Assembly (NCBI RefSeq): GCF_004005855.1
Contig: NZ_SACL01000003.1
Location: 434,001-498,000, forward strand
Length of the DNA stretch: 64,000 bases
Source: Rhodovarius crocodyli
GTDB lineage: Bacteria; Pseudomonadota; Alphaproteobacteria; Acetobacterales; Acetobacteraceae
Reading direction: 5' to 3'
In this document: positions 45,793 to 53,720 of the stretch, in pieces
How positions within the stretch are numbered: position 1 is the stretch's first letter
Layout: each line of letters begins with the position of its first letter
Translations under genes and position numbers: made by a program
The notes under the pieces: generated by a model
The model's database searches: none
The model's input: the letters and a program-made list of their open reading frames with translations, nothing else
What the model was told of the DNA's origin: nothing

Positions 45793-46989
45793 TCAGCCCA
45801 GTGCCTTCGCCGCCGCCTGCCCGGACCGCACGGCGGCATCGATGGTCGCCGGCAGATCGGGCCAGCTCCAATCCCCGGCCAGCGCCAGGTTAGGCAGCGG
45901 CAGCCGCGCGGGCGCCAGCGGCTTGCCCACCAGGTGCCGCGGCGTGGCGCGGCGTTCCTTCACCACCCGGCACTCCGGCGTGCGGATCGGCCATTCGCCC
46001 GGAATGCCGAAGGCCGCCACCGCGCGCAGGATCTCTCCCCAGGCGCGCGGGGCCAGGGTGTCCACATCCTCGCGCGCCTCCGCGTCGCCGGCCGAGACGG
46101 TGACGGACACGCCCGAAGGCCGCACCAGCACCCATTGGCACATGGCGCCCAGGAAGCCGATGAAGCGGACGGGGCCGCCACCAGTACGGGCGAAATGCAG
46201 GTTCACGATCGGCGCATGGGCCTCCGGCACGTCCAGCCCCGGCAGCAGGCGCGCGGATTCCCAAGGGGGCGTGGCCAGCACGGCAGCCTCGGTCGGGATG
46301 CGCTCACCCACATCCAGCGCGACGAGCCTGCCATCCGTGATCTCCAGCCCGCGCAGGCGGGAATTGAAGCGGACCTCGCCGCCCAGCTTCCGGATGGCCG
46401 AAAGGGCAGGCTGCACCAGGTCGGGGCCCAGGCCGCGTTCGGCCACGAACAGCCGCGTGGCGCCGGGCCCGCCCAGCCGCCGCAGCACCTGGGCCAGCCG
46501 GGCGGTGGAGGCCTCGGTGGAGGGGGTGTTCAGGGTCGCGACCACCAGCGGGTCGATGAAGCCGCGATGGAAATCTGGGTGGGCGGCCATGGCCTCGGCC
46601 ACCGGGCGGTCACGGCCGAAACTCATGCCGGCCGTGGCGGCCAGCGCGCCGAGGGAAAGGCCGGGCGGGCGCCGGTCCGCCCGCAGCCAGCCGAAAGGCG
46701 AGAGCGAGATGAGCCGCGCCTGCCCGTCCGCGCAATCCAGCACGGGCAGGCCGTCCGGCTCGGGCTCCACCCAGCGTTCCCGCACGCCGAGCTTCTCCAG
46801 CAGCCCCAGCGCGGCGGTATTGGCGCCGACCAGGGCGTGGGTGCCGTTGTCGGTGCCGTCCGCCAGGGCGCGGGCGCGGCCGCCCGCGCCGGCGGTCGAT
46901 TCATGCAGCACGACCGGGCGCCCGGCTTCCAGCAGCGCCAGCGCGGCCGAGAGCCCCGCGACGCCCGCCCCGATCACATGGACGGTCAT
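45793..46989 (-). CDS. hpnE: Hydroxysqualene dehydroxylase HpnE
   Basis: A 398-residue FAD-dependent enzyme of the amino-oxidase fold. The dinucleotide-binding motif is MTVHVIGAGVAGLSAALALL, and the C-terminal FAD motif is LALAGDWSWPDLPATIDAAVRSG. HpnE reduces hydroxysqualene to squalene, the last step of the HpnCDE route. ATG 46989 overlaps the stop of the HpnCD fusion gene (ATGA), so the three activities are co-translated. It is the last gene of the six-gene pigment operon. Confidence 0.9.
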   Translation of the reverse strand: MTVHVIGAGVAGLSAALALLEAGRPVVLHESTAGAGGRARALADGTDNGTHALVGANTAALGLLEKLGVRERWVEPEPDGLPVLDCADGQARLISLSPFGWLRADRRPPGLSLGALAATAGMSFGRDRPVAEAMAAHPDFHRGFIDPLVVATLNTPSTEASTARLAQVLRRLGGPGATRLFVAERGLGPDLVQPALSAIRKLGGEVRFNSRLRGLEITDGRLVALDVGERIPTEAAVLATPPWESARLLPGLDVPEAHAPIVNLHFARTGGGPVRFIGFLGAMCQWVLVRPSGVSVTVSAGDAEAREDVDTLAPRAWGEILRAVAAFGIPGEWPIRTPECRVVKERRATPRHLVGKPLAPARLPLPNLALAGDWSWPDLPATIDAAVRSGQAAAKALG

Positions 46990-48620
46990 CGGCCCCAGCC
47001 CAGCGCCATCCGCGCCATGGTCAGCTTCTCGCGCTTGGTCAGGCGGGGGCGGGGGCGCGCGCCTTCCCAGCCGCGCGCCAGCAGCCGCTGGAACAGGCGG
47101 CCATAGCCCCACATCATGACGCGGGCGGGCAGCAGGGCCTCGGCGTCATAGCGGCCCATCTCGGCGGCGGCGGTGGCGAAGCCGGCCTCGGCATCGCGTG
47201 CAAGCCGGGCGCAGATGGCGGCGAAGCGGGGGTGGGCCACCATCTCCTTCGCGGGCCCGTCCGGGATGCCCTCGGCCGCGAGCAGGGAGAGCGGGATATA
47301 GACCCGCTCGCGCTCCGCATCCTCATCCACGTCGCGCAGGATGTTGGTCAGCTGGAAGGTGTGGCCGAGGTCCAGGCCCCAGCCCTCGGCGTTGGTGGCG
47401 CCGAAGATGCGCACGGCCATGGCGCCCACGCTGCCCGCCACGCGGCGGCAATACAGCGCCAGCTCGCCCTCATCGGCGATGCGCACGCGGTCGCCTGCAT
47501 CGGTTTCCATGCCGGCGATCATCGCCTCGCATTCCTCACGCGGGATGGCGAAGGCCTGGCAGGCGAAGGCCAGCTCACGCGACAGCACGCAGTCGGGGCG
47601 GTCCAGCTTGGCGCGCCAGTCGGCCAGGAAGCGGCGCTTCTCGGCCTCGGGCATCTCGCCATCCGCGATGTCGTCCACCGCGCGGCAGAAGGCATAGACG
47701 CCCCACAGCGCGCGGCGGCGCTCACCCGACAGCGCCTTCATGCCGCGCGCGAAGGAGGAACCGGCGCGCGCCACCCGCCCCGCGACCAGCGAGGCATCGG
47801 TGGCCGGCATGAAGGGCGCCCCCAGCAGGGCGCGGGCGAAATCCAGCTTGCCCAGCGCCACGCGCCCCAGCACGGGGTCGGCCGCGCGCAGCCTGGCCAG
47901 CAGGCGGCGCGCCAGGTCGATCGTCACCTTGGACTGCATGGCCAGCCGGCGGGAGGCGACGAGGCGCGGCAGGGCGTGGGCGCGGTCCAGCTCCTCCTCC
48001 ACCCGGTCCAGCGCCGCGTCCAGAATGGCGCGGCGCATCGGATTGGCGGGGTCGAAGAAGGCGGCCTCGCCGCCCGCGATCGCCATCCAGCTCTCGGGCA
48101 TGTAGATGCGCGAGAGGCGGTCGCGGTCGGGCACCAGGTCCTGCAGGTGGTTCAGGATCTGCAGCGCGGTGCACAGCCCGTCGGAGGCCGCGATGGCCTC
48201 GGGCGCCGTGGTGCCGTGCAGGCGCAGCAGCATGCGGCCCACCGGGCTGGCGCTGCGGGCGCAGTAATGTTCCAGCGCCGCCCAATCGGCATAGCGGGCC
48301 TGGACGGAATCCTGGCGGAAGGCCTCCAGCATCAGGGCGGCTTCCTCGGTGCCCACGCCCGCGCGGTGCATGCCCGCGGCCTCACGCAGGGTGGTCGCGG
48401 GGTCCGCGAGCGCCGCGCCCATGGCATCCAGCCGCCGCAGCTTTTCCTCGGGCGGCAGGTCGGGGCTGTCGGCGATGTCGTCGGCCACGCGGACGAAGCG
48501 GTAGAAGGCCATGACCTTCCCGCGCACCGCCGGCGCCAGCATCAGCGAGGCGGTGGGGAAGTTTTCCGTGTCATGGTCCCGGGTGGGCGTTTCTGACACC
48601 GCGAGCGAGTCTGCCGTCAT
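46986..48620 (-). CDS. HpnC-HpnD fusion, bifunctional squalene pathway synthase
   Basis: A 544-residue protein containing two complete squalene/phytoene-synthase domains in one frame. Residues 1-270 are HpnC-like (presqualene diphosphate to hydroxysqualene), with acidic motifs DDIAD (47-51) and NHLQDLVPD (157-165). Residues 271-544 are HpnD-like (two FPP to presqualene diphosphate), with DDIAD (316-320) and NILRDVDED (426-434). The second domain opens with Met271 (MPATDASLVAGRV), as if an ancestral HpnD start had been fused in frame to the end of HpnC. Each domain is ~270 residues, the normal size of a free enzyme. Start overlaps the glycosyltransferase stop, stop overlaps hpnE start (both ATGA). 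Confidence 0.9.
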   Translation of the reverse strand: MTADSLAVSETPTRDHDTENFPTASLMLAPAVRGKVMAFYRFVRVADDIADSPDLPPEEKLRRLDAMGAALADPATTLREAAGMHRAGVGTEEAALMLEAFRQDSVQARYADWAALEHYCARSASPVGRMLLRLHGTTAPEAIAASDGLCTALQILNHLQDLVPDRDRLSRIYMPESWMAIAGGEAAFFDPANPMRRAILDAALDRVEEELDRAHALPRLVASRRLAMQSKVTIDLARRLLARLRAADPVLGRVALGKLDFARALLGAPFMPATDASLVAGRVARAGSSFARGMKALSGERRRALWGVYAFCRAVDDIADGEMPEAEKRRFLADWRAKLDRPDCVLSRELAFACQAFAIPREECEAMIAGMETDAGDRVRIADEGELALYCRRVAGSVGAMAVRIFGATNAEGWGLDLGHTFQLTNILRDVDEDAERERVYIPLSLLAAEGIPDGPAKEMVAHPRFAAICARLARDAEAGFATAAAEMGRYDAEALLPARVMMWGYGRLFQRLLARGWEGARPRPRLTKREKLTMARMALGWGR

Positions 48621-49696
48621 TCCGCCGTTGTGACGGGATATTCGCGACCTTTCCAGCCCGCCCGGCGGCCCATCAGCGCACGAATCAGCGCCTGCCACTG
48701 GATCGCCAGCGCGACGAGCACGGAAAACGGGTGCAGCGCCACCGTCCAGAGCGGTTCCCGCGCCCTGGCGGCGATGGCGGCGCGGATGGCGAAGCCCAGC
48801 GCCAGCGCCGCGACGGCGCGCGGATCGGGCAGCAGCGCCCAGGGCAGCAGGTGCCCGCCGGCCAGCAGCAGGGTCCAGACCGGAAGGCCGGCCGGTGTCG
48901 CCATCCCCTCATGCGCGTTCTTGGCGAAGCCGGCCCAGGCCTCCGCGAAGCCGCGATACATGCGGCAGGAAGCCAGCGGCGCGCCGTCCACCACCTCCGT
49001 CCGATGGCCGCGCGCGCGCAGCAGCCGCGCCAGCGCCAGGCCGTCATGCAGCACGGCGCGGATGGCGCCATGGCCGCCTACGGCGCGATAGGATGCGGCA
49101 TCGAGCATCAGCAACTGCCCGCAGGCGGCCGCGAAGCCCGGCCGGCGCATCCGCCCGCGCCCGCCGAAGGGCAGGTAGCCCAGCATCAGGACATTGATGA
49201 AGGGCACGGTCAGGGCCTCACCCCAGCTGCCGATGCGCTGGCGCGGCACGCCGCTGACCAGGGCCAGGCGCCGTTCCGCCGCATGGGCCGCCAGGGTGGC
49301 GGCGGCGTCTGGCGCCAGCCGCACATCGGCATCGACGAACAGCAGCCAGTCGCCGCGCGCGGCCTCGGCCAGGCGCGCGCAGGCATGCACCTTGCCGGTC
49401 CAGCCCGCCGGCAGCGCGGGGGCGCGCAGCAGCCGTACCTGCGGATGGCGCGCCACGATCCCTGCGGTGCCGTCGGTGCTGGCGTCGTCCATCACCAGGA
49501 TCTCGATATCCACGTTCCGGCTTCCGGCGGCGGCGGCCAGGCAATCGCCGATATGGGCGGCCTCGTTGCGGGCAGGGATCAGGATGGAGACGAGCGTGCC
49601 GCGCCGCGCCGTACCACGGGCGCGGGGCTGGAACCACAGGTTGGCCGCCCCCAGCAGGGCCGGCAGCAGCGCAAGCCCCAGCGCCAGCCAGCCCAT
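48617..49696 (-). CDS. Family 2 glycosyltransferase, CrtQ-like
   Basis: A 359-residue membrane-linked GT-A glycosyltransferase. An N-terminal hydrophobic helix (~3-20) precedes the catalytic domain: VSILIPARNEAAHIG, MDDAST (Asp70/Asp71), DADVRL (122-124). Two or three C-terminal helices (~265-345) follow. In pigment operons such GT2 proteins resemble CrtQ, which glycosylates C30 carotenoid acids in staphyloxanthin-type pathways; the acceptor here is inferred from context. Its ATG shares a base with the acyltransferase stop (TGATG), and its stop overlaps the hpnCD start. Confidence 0.82.
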   Translation of the reverse strand: MGWLALGLALLPALLGAANLWFQPRARGTARRGTLVSILIPARNEAAHIGDCLAAAAGSRNVDIEILVMDDASTDGTAGIVARHPQVRLLRAPALPAGWTGKVHACARLAEAARGDWLLFVDADVRLAPDAAATLAAHAAERRLALVSGVPRQRIGSWGEALTVPFINVLMLGYLPFGGRGRMRRPGFAAACGQLLMLDAASYRAVGGHGAIRAVLHDGLALARLLRARGHRTEVVDGAPLASCRMYRGFAEAWAGFAKNAHEGMATPAGLPVWTLLLAGGHLLPWALLPDPRAVAALALGFAIRAAIAARAREPLWTVALHPFSVLVALAIQWQALIRALMGRRAGWKGREYPVTTAE

Positions 49697-50481
49697 CAGC
49701 GCCGCCCGTGGCGCGGGTCGTGCTTCTCGCCCCGCAGCAGCGCCCGCAGATACTGCCACCCGCCATAGACCCCGCCCATGCCCGCACGGCCTTGCAGCAG
49801 CGTGTCGAAGCGGGCCGGATCGCGGCTGATGGCGTCGTTCGCCAGCCGGTCCATCGTCTCGGCCAGGGCGGCGCTCATCAGCCGCGCCCGGCTGTCCCGG
49901 TCATGGGTCAGCAGGGCCGATGCCTCGATGGGCGGGCCGAAGGCCGCCAGGGCCTCGGGGTGTGCCTCGCTCCAGAACGGGTATTCCATGGCCAGCGGCA
50001 GGAACACCGCATCGGGCGCGATCTCGGCCAGGCGGATCACGCCGGGGGCGAGGGGAAGCGGCCGCTCGCGCGGGTCCGCGAAGCGGCCGGGGGCGTTGAT
50101 CCAGAGCATGTTCCAGGGATCGGCCAGGATGGTTTCCGCGGCGCGCAGGAATTGCGCGGCGCCGCGCGGGCTGTGCTGTTCCACCCCGAACACGCCGATG
50201 CGCCGCATGAAGCCGTAGCGGCCCAGCGCCGCCGCATCCATCGGCGAGAAGCAGGGCCGCCCCGGCATCAGGCGCCGGTGCAGCAGCATGAACATCACCC
50301 CGTCCCACCAGCCGGCATGGCTGGCCAGAACCACCAGGGGGCGGCCCTCGGGCACCTGCGGCATGCCCCATTGAGCCAGCCGCAGCGCCGTCATGGACTG
50401 CGTGAAGCGGCGGGTGAAGGCGATCTCGAAGAAGCGCACCATCTTCGGGGAGCGCAGCGCGAGAGGACAGCCGGGTGTCAT
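49696..50481 (-). CDS. PlsC-like acyltransferase of the pigment operon
   Basis: A 261-residue lysophospholipid-acyltransferase-like protein. The catalytic H-x4-D motif is HAGWWD (His55 to Asp60), followed by PCFSPMDAAALGRYGFMRRIG, the acceptor-binding region, and INAPGRFADPRERPLPLAPG in place of the usual EGTR motif. In a carotenoid operon with a glycosyltransferase it may esterify the sugar of a glycosylated carotenoid, as CrtO does in staphyloxanthin synthesis; ordinary phospholipid synthesis is the alternative. The start overlaps the desaturase stop (ATGA, 50478-50481). Confidence 0.75.
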   Translation of the reverse strand: MTPGCPLALRSPKMVRFFEIAFTRRFTQSMTALRLAQWGMPQVPEGRPLVVLASHAGWWDGVMFMLLHRRLMPGRPCFSPMDAAALGRYGFMRRIGVFGVEQHSPRGAAQFLRAAETILADPWNMLWINAPGRFADPRERPLPLAPGVIRLAEIAPDAVFLPLAMEYPFWSEAHPEALAAFGPPIEASALLTHDRDSRARLMSAALAETMDRLANDAISRDPARFDTLLQGRAGMGGVYGGWQYLRALLRGEKHDPRHGRR

Positions 50482-52049
50482 CCCAGCGCCGTCTCGCGGC
50501 TGCCGGCGATGCGCGCGGCCTCATCCATGCCGCGCCCGCCCAGGTCCTGGTCCAGCGCATCGGCGGCGATCCAGCCGCTCATCATCACCATCGGCATGCC
50601 GGGGCCGGGGTGGGCCGCGCCGCCGCACAGGTACAGGCCCCGGATATCGCGTGAGCGGTTGCCGGGCTTGAAGGCGCCGGTGAAGGTGCCGTGGCTGGCG
50701 AGGCCATAGATGGCACCGTTCAGCACCTTGTAGCGCTCATGGATGTCCTGCGGCGTCAGATGCGCCTCGGCGATGATGCGGTCCTCGATGTCGGTCAGCC
50801 CCGCCGTGCGCTTCAGCTTGTCCAGGATCACCTGGCGATAGGCCGGCAGCATGCGCTTCCAGTCATGGTGCGGGCGCAGCCAGGGGGTGTGGACCAGCAC
50901 ATACAGCGCCTCCGCACCCTCGGGCGCGGCGGTGGGGTCGCTGAAGCTGGTGGCGGCCAGATAGGCGGTCGGGTCCGGCGCCGGCTCGCCGCGCTTGTAG
51001 ATGGCGTCGAACTCCTCCTCCGGATCGCGGGAGAAGACGAAGTCATGGTGCGCCAGATGCTCGTACCGCTTGTTCAGCGCCAGATAGAGCACCACGCCGC
51101 TGCATGCCGCCTCGAAGCCCTTATGGGCATAGGCATCGCCCACGCGGCCGCCCACCAGCTCCGTATAGGTGCGGATCGAATCCATGTTGGAGATGACGGC
51201 ATCGCAGGCGATGCGCTCGCCATCGGCCAGCAGCACACCGCGCACCACGCCGTCACGGATGTCGAGGCCCGTGACCTCCGCATTGGTGCGCAGCTCGGCG
51301 CCCAGCTCGCCGGCCAGCTTCGCCAGCCCCTCGGCCACGGCGCGGGTGCCGCCCTTGGGGTACCAGACGCCCTCCGCCGACTGCATGTCCCCGATCGCGC
51401 ACAGCACGGCGGGCGCGGCATAGGGGTTGCTGCCGACATACTGCATGTAGTGGTCCAGCATCTGCGCCAGGTTGGCATCCGGCACATGCTTGCGGATGAC
51501 GCCCGCCGCCGACTGGCCCATGCGCAGGGCCATGACATCCTTCAGCACCTCGGGCTTGAAGTTGTCGGCCACGTTCATGGTGTCGGCGATGCCCTCGACC
51601 GGGCGCCAGAAGAAGAACTTCTCCGAGACGTCGTGCAGGTGGCGGGCCACCTTCTGGAAGCGCTGGTAGCCCTCGCCCAGCTTGCGGCCGGGGGCGACGC
51701 GCTCGATCTCGGCCAGCATGGCATCCAGCTCGCCCATCAGGTCGGCGCGGGTGCCGTCCTCGAAGAAGCAGCGCCATTGCGGCTCCAGCTTCAGGATGGG
51801 CACATGCTGGTCCAGCGCGCGGCCGGCCTCGGCGAAGATGCGGCGCAGGACGCGGGGCACCGTCAGGATGGTGGGGCCCATGTCGAAGCGGAAATTGCCC
51901 ATGGGCGTCGGCAGGTCCAGCACCGCCGCCTTGCCGCCCAGCCAGGGGTTCCTCTCCAGCAGCGTGACCCGATGGCCGCGCGCGCGCGCCACCGCCGCCG
52001 CCGACAGGCCACCCAGGCCCGAACCGATCACCACCACATGCGAGGCCAT
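50478..52049 (-). CDS. CrtI/CrtN-family carotenoid desaturase
   Basis: A 523-residue FAD-dependent desaturase. The N-terminal dinucleotide fold is VVVIGSGLGGLSAAAVARAR; the signature C-terminal motif is GLYLCGGAAHPGPGMPMVMMSG, as in bacterial phytoene desaturases. Given hpnCDE in the same operon and no crtB, the substrate is probably squalene or dehydrosqualene (a C30 route, as with CrtN). ATG 52049 is chosen to give this N-terminus; upstream in-frame sequence would run into the neighbouring desaturase gene. Confidence 0.85.
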   Translation of the reverse strand: MASHVVVIGSGLGGLSAAAVARARGHRVTLLERNPWLGGKAAVLDLPTPMGNFRFDMGPTILTVPRVLRRIFAEAGRALDQHVPILKLEPQWRCFFEDGTRADLMGELDAMLAEIERVAPGRKLGEGYQRFQKVARHLHDVSEKFFFWRPVEGIADTMNVADNFKPEVLKDVMALRMGQSAAGVIRKHVPDANLAQMLDHYMQYVGSNPYAAPAVLCAIGDMQSAEGVWYPKGGTRAVAEGLAKLAGELGAELRTNAEVTGLDIRDGVVRGVLLADGERIACDAVISNMDSIRTYTELVGGRVGDAYAHKGFEAACSGVVLYLALNKRYEHLAHHDFVFSRDPEEEFDAIYKRGEPAPDPTAYLAATSFSDPTAAPEGAEALYVLVHTPWLRPHHDWKRMLPAYRQVILDKLKRTAGLTDIEDRIIAEAHLTPQDIHERYKVLNGAIYGLASHGTFTGAFKPGNRSRDIRGLYLCGGAAHPGPGMPMVMMSGWIAADALDQDLGGRGMDEAARIAGSRETALG

Positions 52050-52069: not shown

Positions 52070-53629
52070 CTAGAATGCCACCGTCAGGCCCTGCGCGGCC
52101 TCGGTGATGCCCAGATCCCGCAGCAACAGCTTGCTCGTGATCCGCGCGCCCTCGTAGATCACGGGCAGGCCGCTGCCGGGATGGGTGCCGCCGCCCACCA
52201 GATACAGCCCCTCGCAATCCTGGAAGCGGTTGCCGGGGCGGCGGTGCAGCATCTGCCCGAAATCATGCGCTAGGTTGAAGGTGGCGCCATGCCCCACGGC
52301 GAACTCATCCTGCCAATCCCGGGGCGTCACCACGCGCTCATACCGGATGCGGCGGCGCAGGTCGGGAATGCCGAGGCCCTCCAGCCGGTCCAGCACCGTC
52401 TCCCGGAAGGCGGGCAGGTCGCGCTGCCAGTCGGTGCCGCCCAGCAGGTTCGGCACCGGCGCCAGCGCATACAGCGCGCTGTGGCCGGGCGGCGCCATGC
52501 CGGGGTCGGTGGCGCCCGGGTGATGCAGGTACAGGCTGGGCGTGTCCGGTATCTCGCCGCGTTCGATCTGCGCCAGGTTCGCGGTGTATTCGCGCGACAT
52601 CAGCACATTGTGGTGCGCGAGGCCGGGGCATTCGCCCTCGATGCCCAGGTACAGCATGAAGGTGGAGCAGGAATAGCGCGCCGCCTTGATGCGGGCATCG
52701 GGCCAGCGGCGGCGCCGGGCCTCGGGCACCAGCCGCGGCATGGCATGGGCGAAATCGGCGTTCATCACCACCGCGTCGGCCGCGATGTGCCTGCCCCCCG
52801 CCACCACCCCGTCGGCGCGGCCGCCGGAGAAGCTCACGCGCTCCACAGGGCAGCCCAGATGGATGCGCGCGCCGAGCCTTTCCGCCACCCGCGCCATGGC
52901 GCGCGACACGCCGCCCAGCCCGCCCGCGACGTGGAACACCCCGTGCTCGTATTCCAGGAAGGACAGGATGGTGAACAGCGAGGGGCAGCGGAACGGGCTC
53001 ATCCCCAGGTATTTGGCCTGGAAGGAGAAGGCGAGGCGGATGCGCGGGTCGTGGAAATAGCGCCTCAGATCGGCTTCCACGCTCAGATGCGGGCGCAGAT
53101 GCGGCAGCGCCTTCAGCATCGGCAGGGCGAACAGGTCCGACGGCGAGAGGATCGCGTTTTCCAGGATGGGCCGGAAGGCCGCCAGCTTGGCGCGGTTTTC
53201 CGCCATGAACCGCGCGAAGCCCGCGGCATCCCCAGGCGCGATGCGCGCGATGGCCGCGTGCATCGCCGCCGCGTCCGGCGTCGCGTCCAGCACCTGCGGC
53301 GCGCCGTCGGTCTCGAAGATCAGCCGGTATTGCGGGTCGAGGCGGCGCATCTCCACCTCGCGGTCCAGATCCGCGCCGCATTGGGCGAAGATCTCGCGGA
53401 TGATGCGCGGATACAGGAAGAAGGTGGGGCCGAGGTCGAAGCGATAGCCGCCCGGCGCCTCCATGGTGCGGGTGCGCCCGCCCACCACCGCGTCCTTCTC
53501 ATGGACCGAGACCTTCAGCCCGCGTGCGGCCAGCAGCATCGCCGCCGCCAGCCCGCCGGGCCCTGCGCCGATGATCGCCACATGGGCGGGCGGCCGTAGC
53601 AGGGCAGGGGCGGCGAGCGGGGCGTTCAT
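52070..53629 (-). CDS. Second CrtN/CrtP-like carotenoid desaturase or oxygenase
   Basis: A 519-residue flavoprotein related to its downstream neighbour: HVAIIGAGPGGLAAAMLLAARG at the start and LYLVGGGTHPGSGLPVIYEGARI at the end. It may do a further desaturation step or oxidise a terminal methyl group like CrtP/CrtNb of C30 pathways; sequence alone does not decide. First gene of the pigment operon. ATG 53629 has a GAGGGA Shine-Dalgarno and is preceded by a palindrome. Confidence 0.83.
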   Translation of the reverse strand: MNAPLAAPALLRPPAHVAIIGAGPGGLAAAMLLAARGLKVSVHEKDAVVGGRTRTMEAPGGYRFDLGPTFFLYPRIIREIFAQCGADLDREVEMRRLDPQYRLIFETDGAPQVLDATPDAAAMHAAIARIAPGDAAGFARFMAENRAKLAAFRPILENAILSPSDLFALPMLKALPHLRPHLSVEADLRRYFHDPRIRLAFSFQAKYLGMSPFRCPSLFTILSFLEYEHGVFHVAGGLGGVSRAMARVAERLGARIHLGCPVERVSFSGGRADGVVAGGRHIAADAVVMNADFAHAMPRLVPEARRRRWPDARIKAARYSCSTFMLYLGIEGECPGLAHHNVLMSREYTANLAQIERGEIPDTPSLYLHHPGATDPGMAPPGHSALYALAPVPNLLGGTDWQRDLPAFRETVLDRLEGLGIPDLRRRIRYERVVTPRDWQDEFAVGHGATFNLAHDFGQMLHRRPGNRFQDCEGLYLVGGGTHPGSGLPVIYEGARITSKLLLRDLGITEAAQGLTVAF

Positions 53630-53650
53630 CTCGATCCCTCGAATGGACGA

Positions 53651-53667
53651 TGCGGGAGATTCCCGCA
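53651..53667. promoter_or_regulatory. Palindrome upstream of the pigment operon
   Basis: TGCGGGA (53651-53657) and TCCCGCA (53661-53667) form perfect 7-base arms with a GAT centre, 22-38 bases upstream of the first pigment gene. The A/T-rich run 53680-53697 next to it is a plausible promoter location. It is a candidate operator; no regulator gene lies in the operon. Confidence 0.45.
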
Positions 53668-53720
53668 ACGTCAGATGACATTTTGGAAAGAAAAATCCAG
53701 AGCTGAAAGGTCGGGAAAAC

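Follow-up and report, generated by a model that had tools for sequence, protein, structure and literature searches.

Fusion of the squalene synthesis proteins HpnC and HpnD into a single chain is an already known architecture. It was published in 2017, and that report lists fused hpnCD genes in most genomes of Acidobacteria subdivision 2, in some Actinobacteria and in Rhodospirillum centenum (PMC5462960). The gene described here, hpnCD of Rhodovarius crocodyli (Acetobacteraceae), lies on a 64,000-nucleotide stretch of contig NZ_SACL01000003.1 (positions 434,001 to 498,000), hereafter the window. It has the architecture named in that report, with HpnC followed by HpnD in one chain of about twice the size of either. 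The initial annotation of the window had regarded the fusion as unusual in kind, a view that the earlier publication overtakes. The interest lies in the setting. The subdivision 2 fusion is placed by that report in a cluster of hopanoid genes, whereas that of R. crocodyli is in a carotenoid operon, away from the squalene-hopene cyclase gene (shc). The initial annotation made no reference to this carotenoid operon.

Two other described systems share the pathway. In Methylobacterium extorquens and Azospirillum brasilense, squalene made by HpnC, HpnD and HpnE is passed to CrtN-type enzymes, an acyltransferase and a glycosyltransferase (PMC10448405, PMC13274349). The genes hpnC and hpnD are separate in both, beside hpnE and shc in M. 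extorquens, and in an hpnCDE set apart from crtNPOQ in Azospirillum; in R. crocodyli, by contrast, the crt operon contains them as a single fused gene. Deletion of hpnCDE in Azospirillum is described as abolishing carotenoids, and deletion of crtNPOQ as leading to squalene accumulation (PMC13274349). The split Azospirillum genes fall near the fused clade in our tree. The split hpnC-hpnD-hpnE genes in hopanoid operons of Acetobacteraceae, such as Roseomonas marmotae (L029), belong to the same families and have the same gene order as in R. crocodyli. There, hpnC and hpnD are two genes placed between an hpnB-like gene and shc, a position where R. crocodyli has neither. Among the entries read from searches of one literature collection, none reported hpnCD in a carotenoid operon, or that placement combined with a hopanoid operon lacking hpnC-D-E.

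From its sequence and surroundings we infer, with high confidence, that hpnCD encodes a bifunctional synthase leading from farnesyl diphosphate (FPP) to hydroxysqualene, which is expressed from a pigment operon and supplies both the carotenoid and the hopanoid pathways. The C-terminal HpnD half would join two FPP molecules into presqualene diphosphate, the N-terminal HpnC half would convert this to hydroxysqualene, and HpnE, encoded by the next gene, would reduce hydroxysqualene to squalene. Two CrtN-type enzymes, an acyltransferase and a glycosyltransferase would then use the squalene for a pigment. The same hpnCD protein would most likely also feed hopanoid synthesis, since the genome yielded no other HpnC or HpnD, while it keeps the cyclase Shc in an hpnA-hpnB-shc operon.

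The hpnCD open reading frame has 544 codons plus the stop, with no internal stop in its translation. Scanned whole with hmmscan, the protein passes the curated cut-offs of both HpnC (TIGR03464, 328.1 bits against 250.45) and HpnD (TIGR03465, 314.6 bits against 278.6), each total including a cross-match to the sister domain. When the halves are scanned separately, the N-terminal one scores 91.5 bits to HpnD and the C-terminal one 112.2 bits to HpnC, in each case far below the score to its own family (Table 1). Since the separate scores to their own families are under the cut-offs, the two halves are assigned by their margin over other families and not by cut-off. The Pfam model SQS_PSY (PF00494) matches in two stretches at 323.8 bits (gathering cut-off 26), and the two halves are 34% identical to each other over 167 residues. 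Each half carries both acidic motifs, one of the form DDxxD and one with two aspartates spaced by three residues. In 51 aligned fused proteins, the aspartates D47, D48, D51, D161, D165, D316, D320, D430 and D434 are invariant, and D317 is nearly so. The initial annotation was therefore right about the two domains in one uninterrupted frame and about the four motifs. It had also read a methionine at the start of the second domain as a relic of the HpnD start, which does not hold up: Met271 occurs in one of the 51 aligned rows, Rhodovarius lipocyclicus has an alanine there, and the HpnD match begins at residue 283.

The fusion is real. All nine sampled genomes of the genus, R. crocodyli included, have it, eight with a full open frame and one with the gene split by a contig end. 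At least 54 of 249 sampled genomes of the family, again counting R. crocodyli, have a single full-span match without a stop, and two others are cut by contigs; the 54 comprise 51 of the R. crocodyli type plus G009, G061 and G147. The nine genomes of the genus belong to a set of 60, R. crocodyli among them, in which 15 give an uninterrupted full-span match and a contig end divides the gene in one more; all nine are among these 16. Among 240 genomes of the class, there are eight uninterrupted full-span matches at E <= 1e-60, R. crocodyli among them, and three others with one internal stop. These counts answer the call of the initial annotation for a survey of single-chain architecture in related genomes. 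The copy in R. lipocyclicus (L030) is 93% identical and contains no internal indel, and 99 of its 145 base differences are at third positions. That open frame in relatives, together with the indel-free copy, excludes an indel artefact. An error of sequencing or assembly in which the stop separating two genes was lost has essentially no chance of being the explanation; we found no point in its favor, and it is refuted by the same open frame in other genomes of the genus and family.

The R. crocodyli genome contains three SQS_PSY stretches, two of which are the halves of hpnCD. The third was considered as a second HpnC or HpnD and rejected at a score of 76.9 bits to HpnD (cut-off 278.6); no DDxxD was seen in it on reading by eye. 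Among 57 genomes carrying the carotenoid-type fusion, a single match to the HpnC model exceeds 200 bits in 54, namely the fused one; the exceptions, G182, G146 and G151, have a fused copy that matches this model in part only. No second HpnC was found in any of the 57, where matches outside the fused gene reach at most 149.8 bits, compared with 275 for a true split HpnC. The three weaker matches to the HpnC model that were examined fit phytoene synthase best, at 395–410 bits, under that model's cut-off of 500. The cyclase Shc exceeds its cut-off in 43 of the 57, and that of R. crocodyli does so as well and carries the motif DVDD, of the DxDD form that we take to be the mark of Shc. With the best 24 candidates per genome scored, HpnE appears at E <= 1e-30 once each in 55 of the 57: 50 beside hpnCD, three beside shc, and two as partial matches on other contigs.

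The hopanoid operon has a corresponding gap. In R. crocodyli, shc, hpnA and an hpnB-like gene are on another contig than hpnCD, outside the sequence available to the initial annotation, and in all seven genomes chosen for inspection, this one included, the operon reads hpnA-hpnB-shc (hpnB being the hpnB-like gene) without hpnC, hpnD or hpnE. In most of the split loci in a hopanoid context, hpnC-D-E separate the hpnB-like gene from shc. A mixed state is seen in three genomes (G231, G192 and G234; loci L162, L163 and L164), with the order hpnA-hpnB-hpnD-hpnE-shc and hpnC alone missing. The sole HpnE found in each lies in this operon (best 24 candidates scored), and the carotenoid operon of G231 (L165) has fused hpnCD without hpnE. 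Judged from these gene sets, the pigment operon should provide HpnC in the three genomes, and the hopanoid operon should provide HpnE. Such mixed sets support sharing and speak against a sealed channel.

Across 133 HpnC/HpnD loci, those by carotenoid genes are fused in 71 cases and split in none, those by hopanoid genes are fused in 10 and split in 32, and those by neither are fused in 11 and split in 9. Three of the loci are exact repeats; the remaining 130 give 69 and 0, 10 and 32, and 10 and 9 in the same order. These counts are not a census, the loci having been gathered mostly by likeness to the fused protein (best 80 of at least 565 relatives). The carotenoid context of L092 and L151 is assigned from a CrtN-like neighbor alone, and the carotenoid cluster of G049 lies elsewhere. 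In G016 and G030 (L147 and L148), a distance of over 4 kb separates split hpnC from hpnD within the hopanoid region.

Because most loci had been found through the fused protein, a search was also made with the acyltransferase. It returned 7 of 385 genomes of the class at E <= 1e-25, R. crocodyli included. The other six have the cluster crtN-crtN-acyltransferase-glycosyltransferase, with hpnC and hpnD absent from the stretch read (19.5 kb; 7.9 kb for one). Their hpnC/D lie in other places: five genomes have two separate matches and one has a fusion. These six clusters suggest that the ancestral state was probably a carotenoid cluster without squalene genes of its own. In the clade of R. crocodyli, the likely event is the arrival of a fused hpnCD-hpnE module after a crtN-crtN-acyltransferase-glycosyltransferase cluster that was already in place.

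The descent of the fusion was examined in trees with support by the Shimodaira–Hasegawa-like approximate likelihood ratio test (SH-aLRT), built by short searches from the joined HpnC and HpnD columns (88 rows) and from each half separately (82 rows). The 88 rows were selected by hand from the 133 loci, and the 82-row set leaves out six with long branches. On one side of a branch are 41 fused rows including R. crocodyli, with an SH-aLRT value of 100 in the joined-column tree, 98 in that of HpnC and 99 in that of HpnD. This clade contains the carotenoid-operon types, a few rows with neither context, and hopanoid-context fused rows of Inquilinus and of a Rhodospirillales metagenome-assembled genome. 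The fused or split label needs seven changes on the tree, and a single origin of all sampled fusions is rejected (approximately unbiased test, 82 rows, p about 1e-48). Together, these results indicate that the fusion arose, or was undone, several times. A hopanoid operon of Acetobacter sacchari contains a 627-residue fusion whose linker is long (L102, 9869–11749); with split neighbors in the tree, it looks like a separate fusion event.

As to how the fusion formed, the initial annotation proposed the in-frame joining of an overlapping gene pair. That is doubtful. The common 4-base overlap is present in 16 of 41 split loci, and hpnD is there out of frame with hpnC, so that fusion from such a pair would also need a change of frame. 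In Azospirillum and Kiloniellales, the split relatives placed nearby in the tree, hpnD is in the same frame, 12–51 bases downstream of hpnC, although these loci were kept partly for being in frame. Loss of one stop codon would suffice there, which is suggestive of an origin from a non-overlapping in-frame pair by that single change.

Several observations weigh against a bifunctional synthase that serves both pathways. Neither half, scanned alone, reaches the curated cut-off of its own family, and the hpnE-like product does not reach that of TIGR03467 (283.05), although it scores 200 bits above the next family. No hpnE hit was found near the fused gene in five 21-kb loci (L066, L067, L070, L071 and L099), nor in two shorter ones, L038 and L088, both cut by contig ends. 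An aldH-like gene, which follows hpnE in many relatives, was not found in the 64-kb window. Shc was not found in 14 of the 57 carotenoid-type genomes, and the three mixed genomes retain hpnD and hpnE in the hopanoid operon, from which it follows that sole supply by the fused gene is not universal. The literature searched yielded no assay of any enzyme from this fused clade.

A protein that makes dehydrosqualene (4,4'-diapophytoene) directly, as CrtM does in the first step of a C30 carotenoid pathway, would suit the carotenoid-type operon, and the solved structure nearest to the HpnD half by sequence is one named CrtM (8is6, E 1.1e-23). One residue is said to separate CrtM from HpnD (PMC7839719). 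We nevertheless give this alternative little credence. Solved CrtM chains have a single domain, whereas both the HpnC and HpnD families are recognized here; hpnE is directly 3' of hpnCD; Shc, an enzyme that requires squalene, is present as well in 43 of the 57 carotenoid-type genomes; and squalene is what the near relative Azospirillum uses (PMC13274349). Still less probable is that one half is inactive and a mere partner or scaffold. The sub-threshold scores of the halves and the extra HpnD of the three mixed genomes would fit such a protein, but both halves retain their acidic motif columns across the 51 fused proteins, and the 57 genomes yielded no other HpnC.

The remaining alternative concerns why the fusion is kept. 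The halves could form a fixed pseudo-heterodimer in which presqualene diphosphate is handed directly from HpnD to HpnC. An AlphaFold2 model of the whole chain from 51 fused sequences has a mean predicted local distance difference test (pLDDT) of 94.5 and a predicted template modeling score (pTM) of 0.92, and the 10-residue blocks across the junction (residues 251–300) have pLDDT 88–95. Such values would be expected if the domains pack in a defined way, and they suggest that the packing is fixed; the seven changes between fused and split on the tree also count for the idea. A Foldseek search of the PDB gave single-domain relatives, such as CrtM and HpnC (4hd1); among the 50 matches listed, of 54 at E <= 0.001, the template modeling score over the query is at most 0.43. 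Against channeling, the linker between the local matches varies from 4 to 56 residues over 92 fused loci, and equal dosage alone could also preserve a fusion. The three mixed genomes, moreover, have a free HpnD, no free HpnC and their sole HpnE in the other operon, so that intermediates seem able to leave. Channeling is thus possible, but as the reason for retaining the fusion we hold it to be on balance unlikely. Slightly more doubtful again is a fuller scenario, in which a fused synthase moved into the pigment operon and displaced hopanoid hpnC-D-E over much of the family, its pseudo-heterodimer channels presqualene diphosphate, and pigment regulation sets the hopanoid supply.

The arrangement of hpnCD may bear on a published remark about acidophilic Acetobacteraceae. 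Their hopanoid genes are said not to be clustered, with typically one or more missing (PMC8776678). Wiring of the R. crocodyli type, with seven hopanoid operons read that lack hpnC-D-E and a fused hpnCD in the carotenoid operon, may explain this, and if so the hopanoid supply would be tied to pigment control. As a naturally occurring single chain, the protein is also a candidate for carrying out the committed steps between FPP and hydroxysqualene. It would be useful in squalene engineering and in studying whether HpnC and HpnD associate in a complex.

Table 1. Features of the carotenoid operon of R. crocodyli, in coordinates of the window.
Feature	Coordinates	Strand	Matches and remarks
hpnCD, single open reading frame	46986..48620 (end coordinate including stop)	minus	HpnC match residues 15-267; HpnD match residues 283-536
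HpnC half, predicted second step (presqualene diphosphate to hydroxysqualene)	47811..48620	minus	D47DIAD51, D161LVPD165; 222.8 bits alone to TIGR03464
HpnD half, predicted first step (2 FPP to presqualene diphosphate)	46989..47810	minus	D316DIAD320, D430VDED434; 235 bits alone to TIGR03465
hpnE-like flavin adenine dinucleotide (FAD) enzyme, predicted hydroxysqualene to squalene	45793..46989	minus	TIGR03467, 240.4 bits; start inferred
Family 2 glycosyltransferase	48617..49696	minus	PF00535 and others; start inferred
Acyltransferase	49696..50481	minus	PF01553; conserved neighbor
CrtI/CrtN-family desaturase	50478..52049	minus	TIGR02734, 378 bits, over cut-off; start inferred
Second CrtI/CrtN-family desaturase or oxidase	52070..53668	minus	TIGR02734, 500 bits, over cut-off

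The operon around hpnCD has the order crtN-crtN-acyltransferase-glycosyltransferase-hpnCD-hpnE, the first four genes being upstream of hpnCD on the same strand. This is a gene set of the C30-carotenoid type (CrtN-type desaturases, acyltransferase and glycosyltransferase). The glycosyltransferase stop overlaps the hpnCD start by four bases (ATGA), and the hpnE ATG overlaps the hpnCD stop in the same way. The HpnE of this operon has diverged, at 240 bits compared with 397–405 for the hopanoid-operon HpnE of three relatives. The same arrangement with a fused gene is present in Roseococcus, Belnapia, Siccirubricoccus, some Neoroseomonas and others, and in Microvirga, once on a 977-kb plasmid; CrtN-type genes in relatives were located with a crtN2 query. 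On that plasmid, in Microvirga ossetica (L027, 2679–12901), the carotenoid cluster and fused hpnCD are accompanied by a methyltransferase gene and ispH.

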